A stretch of DNA of 64,000 nucleotides, taken from a bacterium endosymbiont of Pedicinus badii (GTDB lineage: Bacteria; Pseudomonadota; Gammaproteobacteria; Enterobacterales; Enterobacteriaceae). Made by a program: the position numbers and the translations under genes. The first letter of the stretch is position 1, and each line of letters opens with the position of its first letter. The DNA lies in assembly GCF_002075085.1 (NCBI RefSeq), contig NZ_LKAS01000002.1, forward strand, positions 183,636 through 247,635. The letters run 5' to 3'. Below are positions 4,550 to 32,488 of this stretch, piece by piece. The notes beneath the pieces are model-generated. The model ran no database searches and was not told the DNA's origin. It saw only the letters and a program-made list of their open reading frames with translations.

Positions 4550-5134
4550 CTATATTTCGTTACTTGTGGCTACTATTATTTTTTTAACTTTACTAATTCT
4601 ATTAATTATTTGTACAGCAATTTTTTCTATTTTTTGATCGGCATATCCAAATAAAAATACTTCTTGATTTTCTGTAAAAAAAATTATTTTTAGTAATTCT
4701 TTTCTTTCTTTAGAGAAAAAAAATTTTTCGTATATTTTTGCCGTAATGAGACTATCGTATAGTATTCTTTTTTTCGAAATAGGTTTTTGTACTCTAATTT
4801 GATTGTGCATAGTTTTTATATACTGTATATTTCTTATTTTTTTAACTATTTTTTTTAAAATTTCGTAACTTTCTGCTTGTCCTGCAAGAATAATTTTTTT
4901 TTTATAAATTCTACTAATTATTCTTGCCTTTTTTTTAATTTCTTGATCTTTTGATAAAGAATACAGTACTTTTAATCTAATATTAAAATCATCTATTTGT
5001 TCTCCTAAAGATCTAGAATCTGAAGATGTTTTTGCAATAATTGTTGCAGAACTAATTATAGTAGTACTTATACATCCACAAAGATTAAGAAAAAGTAAAA
5101 TAAAAAAAATTTTTTTTTGCAATAAAAAATTCAT
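4550..5134 (-). CDS. dolP: Outer-membrane lipoprotein DolP (YraP), dual BON domains
   Basis: DolP is an outer-membrane lipoprotein that binds anionic phospholipid and supports BAM and envelope integrity. From the chosen ATG (5134) a signal sequence ends in the lipobox LCGC (Cys about residue 21). The following SSDSRSLGEQIDDFNI matches E. coli TDPRSVGTQVDDGTL. Two BON domains follow: IILAGQAESYEILKK in the first and TENQEVFLFGYADQK in the second, with a final SRVSGV-like motif (NRISKVKKI). A longer start at 5149 adds five residues before the signal peptide and is less likely. The gene is divergent from rsmI as in E. coli, but lpoA, yraN and diaA are missing from between them. Confidence 0.88.
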   Translation of the reverse strand: MNFLLQKKIFFILLFLNLCGCISTTIISSATIIAKTSSDSRSLGEQIDDFNIRLKVLYSLSKDQEIKKKARIISRIYKKKIILAGQAESYEILKKIVKKIRNIQYIKTMHNQIRVQKPISKKRILYDSLITAKIYEKFFFSKERKELLKIIFFTENQEVFLFGYADQKIEKIAVQIINRISKVKKIIVATSNEI

Positions 5135-5160
5135 ACAATTATTATACACAGGTTAACTTT

Positions 5161-6014
5161 ATGAATTCCAGTAAATATAAAAAAAAAACACAAAGTTCTT
5201 TATATATAGTTGCAACTCCTATTGGAAATCTTTCTGATATTACTAAAAGAGCTATTCAAGTTTTACAAAAAGTAGAAATTATAGCAGCAGAAAATATACT
5301 TAAAACAATAAATTTACTGAATAAACTCAGAATAAAAAAAAAATTGTATTCTTTAAATAAAAATAATGAAAAAAAAAAACTAAATTTTTTATTTCTCAAA
5401 TTCAAAATGGTAAATCAATTGCTTTAGTTTCAAGTTCGGGTACTCCTTTAATTAGTGATCCTGGATACATTTTAGTGAGAAACTGCCAAATTCTTAAAAT
5501 ACGTGTAGTTCCCATACCTGGACCTTGTTCTCTAATAGCTGCAATTTCCGCTTCTGGAATGTGCTCTAAAAGATTTTGCTATGAAGGATTTTTGCCAAAA
5601 AAAAGGAATAAAAGAATAAAAAAATTAGAATCTATAATTTTTTCAAGCAAAACAACTATTTTTTTTGAATCAAAACATAGAATTTTAGAAACACTACAAG
5701 ATATTCAAAAAGTTTTTGGAAAAGAAAAAAAAATTGTTCTTGCTAAAGAAATCAGCAAAATTTGGGAAAAAATTGTATTTGAAAAAATAATAAATATTTT
5801 AGAATGGATAAAAAAAGAAAAAAAAAATTCTTTTGGAGAAATGATAATACTTATAGAAGCAAATAAACTAAAAAATTCATACTTTCCAGAAAAAATCATA
5901 GAAACTTTTAAAATTTTAAGAAAAGAACTTAGCAAAAAAAAAGCTATAAAAATTACTGCTAAAATTCATAGGGAAAAAAAAAGAAATATCTATAATTTTT
6001 TTTCTAAAAAATAG
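5161..6014 (+). CDS. rsmI: 16S rRNA (cytidine-1402-2'-O)-methyltransferase RsmI, frameshifted
   Basis: RsmI methylates the 2'-O of C1402 in the 16S rRNA P site. The N-terminal part (5161-5427) has SLYIVATPIGNLSDITKRA. The rest lies in another frame: FISQIQNGKSIALVSSSGTPLISDPGY followed by VVPIPGPCSLIAAISASG, RFCYEGFLPKK and GEMIILIE, all standard RsmI blocks. The break is at or just after an A11 run (5369-5379). Adding one A joins the two parts and yields about 284 residues (E. coli 286). Every other motif is intact, so the gene is otherwise well preserved. It may be rescued by slippage, be a young pseudogene, or reflect a base-call error. It lies upstream of rnpB. Confidence 0.88.
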
Positions 6015-7395: not shown

Positions 7396-9204
7396 TTATC
7401 TGCTTGGATGTCTAAGTTTTCTAAGAGCTTTTGCTTCTATTTGTCTAATTCTTTCTCTGGTAACATCGAATTGTTTTCCAACTTCTTCTAGAGTATGATC
7501 AGTATTCATATCTATACCAAAACGCATTCTTAGTACTTTAGCTTCCCTCGCTGTTAGACTTCTTAAAATCTCGTGAGTAGCAGATCTCAAACTTTCTGAT
7601 GTTGCAGATTCTAAAGGTAATTCTAAATTCGTATCTTCAATAAAGTCTCCTAAATGAGAATCTTCGTCATCACCTATAGGAGTTTCCATGGATATCGGTT
7701 CTCTAGCTATTTTAAGAACTTTTCTAATTTTTTCTTCTGGAATTAGCATTTTTTGAGATAGTTCTTCTGGAGTTGGTTCTCTTCCTATTTCTTGCAAAAT
7801 TTGTCTAGATATTCTATTTAATTTATTTATAGTTTCTATCATGTGTACTGGAATTCTGATTGTTCTAGCTTGATCTGCTATTGATCTTGTTATGGCTTGT
7901 CTAATCCACCATGTAGCATAAGTAGAAAATTTGTATCCTCTTCTATATTCAAACTTATCTACTGCTTTCATCAATCCTATATTACCTTCTTGGATTAAAT
8001 CTAAAAATTGTAGTCCTCTATTCGTATATTTTTTTGCTATTGAAATAACTAAACGTAAATTTGCTTCTACCATTTCTTTTTTAGCTCTTTTTGCCTTAGC
8101 TTCTCCTATAGACATTCTTCTATTAATATCTTTTATTTTTTCTACACTCAATCCTGTCTTTTTTTCTATTTTTTTGAGTATTTGTATTTTTTTTCTTATT
8201 TCTTGATCAAATTTTTTTAGATTTTTTATCCAAGGTTTTTTGATTTTATAGATTTTTTCTAACCAATCTGTATTTATATTTTTTCCAGAAAAAATACTTA
8301 TAAACACATTTTTTGGAACTTTACTCTTTTTTACAAAGAATTCCATAATTTTTCTTTCCTGTATTCTAACTTTTTTGATCATTTTTCTGGTTTTTTTAAC
8401 TAAAAAATCAAATTGTTTTGGTACTAATCTAAATTTTTGAAATATTTTAGAAAGTTCTGAAAATTCTTTAATTGTATTTTTATGATTTCTTCCATTTTTA
8501 TAAATTGAGTATTTTATTTTATTATACTGTTTTTCAAGTTTTAAAAATTTCTTTTTGGCTAAATTTAGATCAATCATATTTTCTTCTTCATTTTCGCTAT
8601 CAGAATTTCTAAATATTTCTTTTTCTTTACAAAAAGATTTTATTGAATTTCTTTGATTTTTTTGAAAAAAAGAAGAACTTTCTATCTTTTCATTCTGATC
8701 TATAAAACCTGCAATAATTTCAGAAAGTTTTATTTTTCCAGATTTAAATTGGTAGTATTGCTTTATTAAGTAATTAATAGATTCCGGATATTCTGCTATA
8801 GAGCACTGTACTTCGTTAATTCCGTCTTCAATACGTTTAGCTATATCAATTTCTCCTTCTCTAGTTAATAGTTCTACTGTTCCCATTTCGCGCATATACA
8901 TTCTTACCGGATCAGTAGTTCTTCCTATTTCCGATTCCACGCTAGATAAAACGTGAGCTGCTGCTTCTTCAGTATCTTCTTCAGAATCAGATGTTGTATC
9001 TATTAATAATAAGTCTTCTATATTTGGTGCATCTTCCGTCACCCTAATTCCCATATCATTTATCATTTGTATTATATCTTCTATTTGATTAGAATCCACA
9101 ATATCTTCTGGCAAATGATCATTAATTTCAGAAAAAGTTAGGTATCCTTGTTCTTTTCCTTTAGTTACTAATAGTTTAAATTGAGATTTCGGATTGTGTT
9201 CCAT
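7396..9204 (-). CDS. rpoD: RNA polymerase primary sigma factor sigma-70
   Basis: The housekeeping sigma factor. The 602 residues compare with 613 in E. coli. Region 1.1 (about 1-80), region 1.2 ([22 protein letters not shown]), a lysine-rich non-conserved segment (about 130-350), region 2 with [18 protein letters not shown], region 3 with [15 protein letters not shown], and region 4.2 with [23 protein letters not shown] are all present. The core and DNA-contact helices are almost unchanged, while the non-conserved insert has drifted to K/F/I. It is the last gene of the macromolecular synthesis operon rpsU-dnaG-rpoD, 14 bases after dnaG. TTGACA/TATAAT-type promoters are therefore expected. Confidence 0.98.
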
Positions 9205-9218
9205 AAATTTTTAATTAG

Positions 9219-10957
9219 TTAGATACCGTTGATTCTATTTTGAAATATTTTTTTACTAATTGACCAAAGTTCCCTTTTTTCTTCTTTTTTTAGACCTTCT
9301 TTTCTTTCTTTAAAAATTAGAAAATTTCTTCTGTTTTCTAAAATAGAATTTAAAACTTTTTTAGTATTATTTAAAAACACTTTTTCTATTTCTTTTTTTT
9401 CTATCATATGATTCCAAGAGGATAAAGTTTTCATTTTCTTATAGAATCTTTTTTTTTTATAGTGTTTTAATAATTTTTTAGTACTAATTTTTGGATTTTT
9501 TTTGCATACAGATAGCATATCAATAAAAATTTTAATTCCTGGAATACAAGCATTTTTTAAAGAATTAAGATTTGCAACTATTCTATACAATTTTGGATTC
9601 TCTAACAATAGAGCAATCAAAATTTTAGTACTGCTATATTGAACTTTAAGTGTATTTTTTTCGTATTCTCCAGTATATGTAAACATATTTCGTATTTGAA
9701 ATGCATCAAGAATACCTATTTTTTTTCCTAATTTACTAAAAAATACAGATCTTGTGTTTTTTCCTGGTATCAATTCAATTAAAGAATTAATGACTTTACA
9801 AATATATATTTTATTAAAATCATTCAAAACACGAATTTTAGTAAATAAAATTTTGAATATATAATCAAATATTCCAAGAGATTTTTTTATCATCTTCTTA
9901 AAACCTTCTTTTCCTATTTTTTTTATTAAGGAATCTGGATCTTCTTTGTTAGGCAGATCTAAAAATTTTGCATTTCTTCCATCTTTTAAAAAAGGCAATA
10001 TTTTTTTTATACTTTTTCGCATAGCAGATTTTCCTGGAAAATCACCATCATAACAAATAATGATTGTATTTGTAATTTCGTAACATTTTTTAATTTGTTC
10101 TGTAGTTAAATTAGATCCTAGAGTAGATACTGCATTTTTAATTCCATACTGTGATAGAATTATAACATCTATATATCCTTCCACAATTATTAGGCTATCG
10201 ATTTTTTTTTTTTAATTTCATAAATTCCGTATAGTATTTTTCTTTTTTTAAAAAACTTATTTTCTATAGAATTTAAGTACTTTGGAACAGCATTATTTAA
10301 AGCTCTTCCTCCAAAACCAATTGTGAAACCTAGAGAATTTCTTATGGGAAACATAATTCTATTACGGAAAAAATCAAATACTTTTCCATTTTTATTACAA
10401 TGTAAAAAATTTAATTTCTTAAGTTCACTAAAAAAATTTTTTTTATTTTTTGTATTTCTATTTAAATACGAAAGAATTGAACTAGAAAATCCAATACAAT
10501 ACTTTTTAATGCTTGAAGAATTAATTTGTCTTTTTTTTAAAAAAGAATAGAGTAGATTTACAGTTGAATTATGCATTTGCTGATTATAAAAATTTTTCAT
10601 ATACTCATTTACTGCAAAAAAATCAGTTTTTTTCTTATCGAATATATTTTTTATTTTTTTTTTAGGTATTTTTATTCCATAAAAACTAGACAATTCTTTT
10701 ATAGATTCCAGAAATCCTAATTTTTCGTACTTCATAATAAAATTTATCGCATTTCCATAAGTTTTGCATCCAAAACAATAGTAAAATTGTTTTTTCTCAT
10801 TCACTACAAAAGAAGGAGATTTTTCAATATGAAAAGGACAAATTGCAGTAAAGTATTTTCCTGATTTTTTTAAAGAAATTTTAGAACTAATTATTTCTGT
10901 AATACTAATAATTTCTAACAATTTTTTTATAAAAGATTCTGAAATTTTTTCATGCAT
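9219..10957 (-). CDS. dnaG: DNA primase DnaG, split by a one-base frameshift at A12
   Basis: DnaG makes the RNA primers at the replication fork. The N-terminal 255 codons (10957-10190) hold the zinc site C40/H43/C61/C64, identical in spacing to E. coli, and the RNAP-like core as far as PKYLNS and KILYGIYEIKKKK. The rest (from about 10199 down to 9219) continues in another frame with SLIIVEGYIDV (TOPRIM Glu), CYDGDFPG (TOPRIM Asp pair) and the helicase-binding C-terminus. The break is a T12 run on the plus strand (10202-10213, A12 in the mRNA). Adding one A gives KKKKIDSLIIVEGYID and a 579-residue protein (E. coli 581). Being essential, it must somehow be made. Confidence 0.93.
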
Positions 10958-11272: not shown

Positions 11273-12292
11273 ATGAAGATCTTAGGCATAGAAACTTCCT
11301 GTGATGATACAGGTATAGCAGTATACGATGAAAAAAAAAAAATTATTATAAATGAACTAAGAAAACAAAAAATACACAGCAAATACGGAGGAGTAGTACC
11401 AGAATTAGCGGCAAAAAATCATGTAAGTAATATAGAATTTTTAATAAAAAAAATTTCTCTAAATTATAAATTCGATTTGAATAAAATAGATGCTATTGCA
11501 TATACAGCAGGGCCAGGATTGCTAAAATCTTTAATAGTAGGATCTACATTTGGAACTTCTTTATCGTATTTTCTAGATATACCTTTAATAGCTATTAACC
11601 ATATGGAAGGACATTTACTTTCTCCATTAATCACTAAAAAAATAGATTTTCCTTTTCTTTGTTTATTAATATCAGGAGGTCATACACAATTAGTAGTTGC
11701 AAAAAAATTTGGAGAATATAAAATTATAGGAGATACCTTAGATGATGCAATAGGAGAAGCATTTGATAAAGTTGCTAACTTTTTAGGACTAAAATATCCT
11801 GGCGGAGAAAAAATATCAAGATTGGCAAAATTTGGAATACCAAAATCTTACAGTTTACCTATTCCTATGATTAAAAATAAAAAAGATATGAATTTTAGCT
11901 TTTCTGGATTGAAAACTGCCACTAAAAATTTAATTACCTCTGTTAGAATAACTAAAAAAGTCAAAAGTAATATATGTAGATCTTTTCAAGAGACTGTTGT
12001 AAAAATGCTTTTGATAAAATGTAAAAGAGCTATAAATTTTACTAAAATAAATAGAATTTGCGTATCTGGAGGAGTAAGTTCAAACTCTTTTTTAAGAAAA
12101 TCTTTTAAGTCTTTTGCAAATGAAACAAATACAAAAATATTTTTTGCGAATAAAGAATATTGTACAGATAATGCAGCAATGATAGCATATGCAGGATATT
12201 TGCATTTTAAAAAAAAGAAAAATTTTCAGAAAAATTTAGAAATATTTTTTGATCCAAATTGGTCTATAGAAAACTCTCATAAGAATTTTTAA
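11273..12292 (+). CDS. tsaD: tRNA N6-threonylcarbamoyladenosine synthase subunit TsaD
   Basis: TsaD transfers the threonylcarbamoyl group to A37 of ANN-decoding tRNAs (t6A), working with TsaB, TsaC and TsaE. The 339 residues compare with 337 in E. coli. The metal ligands are in NHMEGHLLSP (His110, His114); ETSCDDTGIAVYD, FLCLLISGGHTQLV, LDDAIGEAFDKVAN and the C-terminal YCTDNAAMIAYAG (metal Asp) are intact. It is divergent from rpsU as in E. coli. The folB ATG comes 8 bases after its stop. t6A is needed on tRNA-Ile2 and other ANN tRNAs, so the gene is expected even in tiny genomes. Confidence 0.97.
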   Translation: MKILGIETSCDDTGIAVYDEKKKIIINELRKQKIHSKYGGVVPELAAKNHVSNIEFLIKKISLNYKFDLNKIDAIAYTAGPGLLKSLIVGSTFGTSLSYFLDIPLIAINHMEGHLLSPLITKKIDFPFLCLLISGGHTQLVVAKKFGEYKIIGDTLDDAIGEAFDKVANFLGLKYPGGEKISRLAKFGIPKSYSLPIPMIKNKKDMNFSFSGLKTATKNLITSVRITKKVKSNICRSFQETVVKMLLIKCKRAINFTKINRICVSGGVSSNSFLRKSFKSFANETNTKIFFANKEYCTDNAAMIAYAGYLHFKKKKNFQKNLEIFFDPNWSIENSHKNF

Positions 12293-12657: not shown

Positions 12658-12660
12658 AAT

Positions 12661-13460
12661 ATGAAGCAAGATTTTTTATTCTATTTTTTTGCAGGAATAA
12701 TTTCTGGGATTACAGAATTTTTTCCTATTTCTTCTACAGTTCATGTTAGTATTTTCTCTAAAATATTTAAAAATATTTCTTATGAAACAATAGATTTACT
12801 TAATTCTTTCGCGCAATTGGGATCTGCTATTATAGTTATAAAGAAATTTAAATCCTACTATTTTAAAATTTGTAATTTTTTTTTACGTTTCCTTTACAGA
12901 AAAATTTTAAAGATTTTAATATATATCAAATTTTTTTAGGAATTTTTCCAGCATTTTTATTTAGTATTTTAGTAAATCAAGATGGTATACAAAAATTCAG
13001 TAGTGGAAAAATAATCATTTTTTTTATAATAGGGAATATATTTCTTATTATTGCAGAAATTTTAAAAAATAATAAAAATAGCAAAAAAAAAGAGTACTAT
13101 AAATTTTTCATTATCGGAATTGCACAATGTATATCTATTTTTCCAGGAATTTCTAGATCTGGAATAACTATTAGTACTGCAATTTTTTTAGGATTTTCTA
13201 AAAAAGAATCAATTAAAATTTCTTTTTTAATTTTTTCTCCTATTGTTTTAGGAAAGTTTTTTTTGTCCATTTATAAAAAATTTTATCTTTTTTTGGAAAA
13301 TACAAGTGCTTGTTTTATTTCTTTTTTTTCTTCTTTTCTAGTCGCTTATTTTTTTATTAATATATTGCTCAAAATTTTAAAAAAATTATCTTTTTTATAC
13401 TTTATTTTTTACAGATTCGCTATTTGTATTTTAGTATACTATGTAGATGATTTTTTTTAA
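12661..13460 (+). CDS. uppP: Undecaprenyl-diphosphatase UppP (BacA), frameshifted at T9
   Basis: UppP dephosphorylates undecaprenyl diphosphate so the lipid carrier for cell-wall and LPS units can be recycled. The start (12661) gives motif 1, GIISGITEFFPISSTVH. After a T9 run (12876-12884) the conserved frame moves: TFPLQKNF, then FLGIFPAFLF, GIAQCISIFPGISRSGITIS (motif 2) and RFAICILVYY at the end. Adding one T restores a 266-residue membrane protein (E. coli 273). Both phosphatase motifs are intact, so the gene looks otherwise functional. The 3' end overlaps the converging cca by 41 bases. The E. coli-type His of SSTGH is present as SSTVH. Confidence 0.88.
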
Positions 13461-18432: not shown

Positions 18433-18481
18433 AAAAAAAAAAAAAAAAATACTCTTGAAGGTTTTTGTAATGCCCCCATTA
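18433..18481 (+). promoter_or_regulatory. Sigma-32-type heat-shock promoter of groESL with upstream A17 tract
   Basis: CTTGAAG (18454-18460) and CCCCATTA (18474-18481) with a 13-base spacer match the E. coli sigma-32 consensus (CTTGAAA, CCCCATNT). An uninterrupted run of 17 A (18433-18449) ends four bases before the -35 element and resembles an UP element. The GC-rich CCCCC stands out strongly in this AT background. The groES start is 77 bases downstream. Confidence 0.82.
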
Positions 18482-32471: not shown

Positions 32472-32488
32472 TTTTTTTTTTTTTTTTT
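32472..32488. repeat. Homopolymer T17 upstream of ispB
   Basis: Seventeen T in a row between the divergent ispB and rplU genes (A17 on the ispB sense strand, a few bases before its ATG). One of the two longest homopolymers in the window, the other being the A17 before groES. It could bend DNA or influence ispB translation through slippage; no function can be assigned. Confidence 0.5.

Follow-up and report, generated by a model that had tools for sequence, protein, structure and literature searches.

The primase gene dnaG occupies the minus strand between rpoD and tsaD in the window, the 64,000-nucleotide stretch of DNA analysed here, which comes from the genome of the Pedicinus badii symbiont (558,122 bases in two contigs). 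Puchtella sp. str. PRUG is the symbiont of this louse, with a G+C content of 24.2 % (PMC12175528, Table 2), and two accessions are given for its genome (PMC9376444). The original prediction held that dnaG is out of frame at a 12-base A tract, the N-terminal frame ending in YEIKKKKSIA-stop and the conserved part continuing in another frame, and translation confirmed both points: the halves lie in two frames that meet at 10202-10213, where a T12 run on the plus strand is A12 on the dnaG coding strand, and the C part reads KKKIDSLIIVEGYIDV... as far as its stop (Table 1). Overlap between the two open frames is confined to 10190-10211, where the A12 tract lies, and the first ATG, GTG or TTG codon of the C part is a GTG at 10184.

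Table 1. Features of the dnaG region, genes broken near homopolymers in the sampled genome of the Pedicinus badii symbiont, and dnaG shift zones in Buchnera genus g52
Feature	Position	Strand	Tract and state
rsmI	5104..6014	+	-1 break at A11 (5369-5379)
rpoD	7396..9204	-	Intact; adjoins dnaG downstream, same strand
dnaG, C part	9219..10211	-	Open frame, -1 relative to the N part; stop at 9219
A12 tract of dnaG	10202..10213	-	-1 break (frame change) at A12, in the variable linker immediately before the TOPRIM core
dnaG, N part	10190..10957	-	ATG at 10957; 255 aa; out-of-frame stop at 10190
tsaD	11273..12292	+	Intact despite A12 at 11331-11342; internal control
uppP	12658..13460	+	-1 break; T9 at 12876-12884 near; profile matches suggest a shift at about 12903-12912
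lipB	Outside window (L065)		-1 break at A13
xthA	Outside window (L080)		-1 break at A12
der	Outside window (L086)		-1 break at A13
accA	Outside window (L088)		-1 break at A13
lptF	Outside window (L102)		-1 break at A11
dnaG, Buchnera of Ceratoglyphina bambusae (G051)			T9, A9 and A12 in shift zone
dnaG, Buchnera of Chaitoregma tattakana (G228)			A15 in shift zone
dnaG, Buchnera of Astegopteryx bambusae (G307)			A22 in shift zone
dnaG, Buchnera of Pseudoregma panicola (G431)			A12 and A17 in shift zone
dnaG, Buchnera of Ceratovacuna keduensis (G439)			A11 and A7 in shift zone
dnaG, Buchnera of Ceratovacuna japonica (G375)			In frame; tract at the corresponding place interrupted

The NCBIfam primase profile TIGR01391 (414 positions) was covered by the N part from 2 to 252 and by the C part from 262 to 413; either half by itself scored below the profile cut-off of 283.6 bits, and the profile was spanned end to end when both frames were combined. 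The halves also mapped consecutively onto the E. coli-type primase core 3b39_A, residues 10-146 followed by 153-320, with the A12 tract falling in the stretch of about 6 residues between residues 146 and 153. The N part comprises what we take to be the zinc-binding domain and the N-terminal half of the RNA polymerase domain, while the C part carries the TOPRIM core (EGYIDV...CYDGD) and a helicase-binding domain that matches PDB 1t3w. By coordinates, the product joined across the frame change has 252 + 327 = 579 aa, as compared with 581 aa for E. coli DnaG, in keeping with the normal length foreseen for the restored protein. Neither half contained further stops, and the gene presents a single frame change in a homopolymer of at least 9 bases and is otherwise intact, which is one of the features expected of slippage-rescued symbiont genes. 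Among relatives, the linker between YGLYE and LLVVEGYMDV is variable in sequence and somewhat variable in length, suggesting that it should accept one lysine extra or missing.

TIGR01391 matched 389 of 392 genomes of the family, 385 of them above the cut-off. The relatives surveyed for the dnaG frame have genomes below 1 Mb and were hand-picked among the matches listed; the set leaves aside the fragmented genomes G358, G369, G388 and G417, as well as G244, G318, G382 and G114. In the first set, searched with a full-length query, all 79 relatives had an open frame of 577 aa or longer; in 20 of them the matched stretch showed 1-3 stops, which were taken to sit at its ends. In the second set, dnaG was intact in 15 of the 19 genomes with a match, and the four broken ones all belonged to Buchnera genus g52; G360 was uninformative, having no dnaG match, no rpoD and a stretch that is all N. 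Overall, with the broken G439 added to these two sets, dnaG kept a single frame in 94 of the 99 reduced relatives that matched, the five exceptions all falling in one Buchnera genus (g52). The relatives searched for the Pedicinus badii symbiont all belong to other genera.

In five of the six g52 Buchnera dnaG was shifted to -1 (G051, G228, G307, G431 and G439), the breaks lying in the linker that precedes the helicase-binding domain, whereas that of the Pedicinus badii symbiont lies in the linker before the TOPRIM core. rpoD was open in all six genomes; an apparent rpoD break in another genome, G169, was a run of N. In a tree of the N part, the intact G375 fell inside a fork of full support (100/99) that excludes G051, and inside two weaker forks (89/87 and 88/92). 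With G375 nested among broken genomes in this way, one old break followed by one restoration makes a shorter history than several independent breaks. The five broken assemblies come from a single study, which used Illumina assembly with Pilon correction (PMC11193766); G375, the intact genome, is an earlier record from a different source, so that a study effect is confounded with the pattern of breaks. The words dnaG, frameshift and pseudogene do not occur in the main text of that study, and in the open-licence literature we found no published report of the Puchtella or g52 dnaG case. Twenty 20-kb stretches taken from the five g52 genomes with a broken dnaG held 25 candidate breaks, of which 2 were confirmed via an intact sister homologue, a lower bound that misses breaks common to all five genomes and genes not covered in the sister stretch; both were -1, one at A11 and one near T9. 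The small number of breaks in these stretches suggests that the dnaG break in g52 is not merely one among many. A gene of some 290 aa that is whole in four sister species is split at A11 (L128, 9365-9375, plus strand), with a -1 shift, in the Buchnera of Ceratoglyphina.

The survey of relatives bears on two other explanations of the broken frame. Translation might stop at 10190-10192 and re-initiate at the GTG at 10184, only a few bases away, producing a separate C chain that assembles with the N chain. We consider such a split primase very improbable, since a start at this codon would drop the residues directly preceding EGYIDV, itself presumably the first TOPRIM strand, no obvious Shine-Dalgarno sequence was seen upstream of it by eye, and none of the 94 intact relatives shows such a split. 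It is equally hard to credit that dnaG is a new pseudogene and that a different enzyme primes replication, even though the frame is broken and dnaG is not the only broken gene in this genome: a profile search with TIGR01391 found no second dnaG in the assembly, returning the two pieces only, the halves have accumulated no more stops, and the gene is retained in reduced relatives.

Homopolymer breaks elsewhere in the genome were sought in a sample covering 37 % of it, made up of the window and 40 stretches around tracts of at least A12 among those listed; the stretches were picked for long tracts and therefore do not form a random sample, and the far end of contig 2, past the window, lies outside it. 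Seven genes in this sample were split at A11-A13 tracts, the two halves of each adjoining on a single family profile (rsmI, dnaG, lipB, xthA, der, accA and lptF), and the direction was -1 in 7/7 (sign test p 0.016), a figure that covers confirmed A-tract breaks only, some unchecked or unmatched rows having shift 1. In E. coli, der, accA and lptF are essential. Intact coding tracts, counted in open frames of at least 150 codons, numbered 115 for A9, 58 for A10, 28 for A11, 24 for A12, 8 for A13, 4 for A14 and 3 for A15. Confirmed breaks were 0 against 173 intact tracts at A9-A10 and 7 against 67 intact tracts at A11-A15 (Fisher p 0.0002).

The seven genes emerged from 28 candidate rows, in which profile matches of the two halves confirmed a split in eight genes; the eighth, uppP, was excluded from the count because its shift point is uncertain. 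Candidate rows of the window at T9 runs (5110 and 33751) and a T14 run (33228) were outside this check, as was the N-terminal half of the row for the A17 tract at 32472. Three dnaA rows (shift 2, A9-A11) were likewise left out of the count: at L096:587-1293, two pieces in different frames match the ends of DnaA only (profile 1-87 and 336-436 of 437), and with the middle of the profile absent dnaA looks like a remnant. At L091:1041-1543, an MreD-like N half (profile 7-110 of 162) stops just past a T11 tract, and the C half after the tract, in the -1 frame (shift 2), has 59 aa and no family match; mreD is thus a possible further break at T11, and was not counted. The bolA/murA, rlmE/ftsH, lipB/lipA, ackA/pta, ispG/hisS and coaBC/dut rows represented ordinary neighbouring genes, the tyrS row gave no match for its second frame, and neither half of the rows in L070, L081 and L083 (minus) gave a family match. 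Ten open frames with late start codons, considered as off-tract breaks, were separate genes; only these 10 were chosen from 93 neighbouring pairs, so off-tract breaks are possible.

We compared the 61 larger open frames of the window with 300 synonymous shuffles. Tracts of at least A8 (187 versus 179.1) and A9 (86 versus 89.7) were near expectation, whereas fewer than in the shuffles were observed for A10 and longer (38 versus 44.8, 17 of 300 shuffles as low), A11 and longer (18 versus 25.3, SD 2.7, 2 of 300), A12 and longer (9 versus 12.7, 21 of 300) and A13 and longer (3 versus 7.2, 2 of 300). Coding T runs of at least 9 were also slightly below the shuffles (8 versus 11.5). Since tracts of at least A11 are rarer than in synonymous shuffles and those of at least A9 are not, long tracts seem to be costly. 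The longest among the listed A≥10 runs of the window are two A17 tracts, at 18433-18449 and 32472-32488, and both lie outside open frames of at least 100 aa.

An error of assembly or consensus, with the real tract differing in length and dnaG in frame, has to be weighed against these counts, as homopolymer undercalls would yield -1 breaks at longer tracts and so match the pattern. Breaks per coding tract of at least A11 amounted to 7/74 in the Pedicinus badii symbiont versus 1/109 in the sampled Buchnera, the latter a lower bound, and by our reading of the columns in PMC12175528 this genome has 592 CDS and 550 predicted proteins, a gap of 42 that exceeds that of most small symbionts in the table, though entHe1 has 36 of 417. 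However, the broken share of coding tracts of at least A9 (7/247) is similar to the published Blochmannia figures, with ratios of frameshifted genes to tracts of 8 to 153, 4 to 134 and 4 to 114, and the B. vafer genome was sequenced at 542x coverage (PMC3017870). In addition, no confirmed break accompanied the 7 intact A14-A15 coding tracts, though errors should rise with length (a weak argument), and -1 dnaG breaks are present in other assemblies that were Pilon-corrected from Illumina reads, albeit in one study. Taken together, we regard an assembly error as possible but rather unlikely.

A real break in dnaG rescued by slippage, with polymerase and ribosome taken together, is in our judgement the probable explanation. 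Counted in its favour are the lack of stops in the halves, the single dnaG of the assembly, the single frame in relatives and the seven -1 breaks at A11-A13; counted against it is that a -1 homopolymer undercall would produce an identical pattern of length and direction. In the assembly, one base lost from a long A tract puts dnaG out of frame, and the same would apply in the cells. Given the length of the A12 tract and a linker tolerant of length, a share of readouts would probably slip by one base and restore the frame, either because RNA polymerase adds an A or because, on consecutive AAA codons, the ribosome moves back by one base. The two routes would yield an identical joined protein, and the output of full-length primase would probably be sufficient for a slow-dividing symbiont.

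The original interpretation, a frame break at A12 with no further stops, bridged by a mix of transcripts, stood as regards the break and left out ribosome sliding or -1 frameshifting, as well as the B. vafer precedent for dnaG; its own alternative, a homopolymer base-call error, is the possible assembly error weighed above. By analogy with other symbionts, it is plausible that RNA polymerase slippage rescues dnaG in the Pedicinus badii symbiont. The same product would be expected from ribosome sliding or -1 frameshifting, which matches the -1 direction and the A11 threshold at least as well, but a base-loss bias, in replication or in sequencing, would account for direction and threshold just as a ribosomal contribution does. 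The A12 tract contains the slippery heptamer A_AAA_AAA in phase. The 70 bases downstream of the tract gave no stem-loop signal (z -0.91; 41 of 200 shuffles folded equally well or better), and we rejected a programmed frameshift of the dnaX type, with a stem-loop, on this account.

A wider proposal is that ribosomes sliding back by one base at A11 and longer are the main rescue in AT-rich insect symbionts, so that only -1 breaks at such tracts are tolerated, and that dnaG has been hit repeatedly in separate symbiont lineages (louse, ant and aphid) and kept since a low and noisy primase output suits slow replication; we hold this to be doubtful. If the dnaG case is real, there are at least three lineages of insect symbionts in which an essential replication enzyme relies on errors of readout, which would make it testable which error, that of polymerase or of ribosome, sustains eroded genomes, and why the breaks go one way. 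It would also serve as a warning that such a gene may appear dead in annotation yet still function.

Transcriptional slippage reportedly rescues frameshifted genes of Buchnera and Blochmannia, a finding attributed to Tamas in 2008. Those genes and dnaG of the Pedicinus badii symbiont have in common a poly(A) tract, a frame lost in the DNA and an AT-rich symbiont; corrected transcripts were measured there, at 12-50 % in frameshifted genes of aphid and ant symbionts (PMC5009743), whereas for the present dnaG slippage is a proposal. The kind of case is already known, dnaG included, and the Pedicinus badii symbiont adds another member: a frameshift in a homopolymer of Blochmannia vafer dnaG was reported in 2010 and transcriptional slippage was proposed (PMC3017870). 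The two share the same gene, a homopolymer indel, an otherwise intact frame and an obligate insect symbiont, but B. vafer belongs to an ant-symbiont lineage, and the likeness holds at the level of the gene. On homopolymeric A, the ribosomes of a cell-free E. coli system slid robustly when the run was A11 but only slightly at A9-A10 (Koutmou 2015, PMC4363877), and A11 is also where the confirmed breaks of the Pedicinus badii symbiont begin; that work differs in using reporter constructs, on which sliding made large excursions, and is not known to have shown rescue of a natural gene. Slippage by E. coli RNA polymerase is reported to be greater on T runs than on A runs (PMC6260861). Finally, dnaX, which undergoes -1 ribosomal frameshifting in E. 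coli and transcriptional slippage at A9 in Thermus (PMC1088944), resembles dnaG in having a slippery A run within a replication gene, but its slip adds a second product beside the full one, while in dnaG the slip would be the sole route to the full product.
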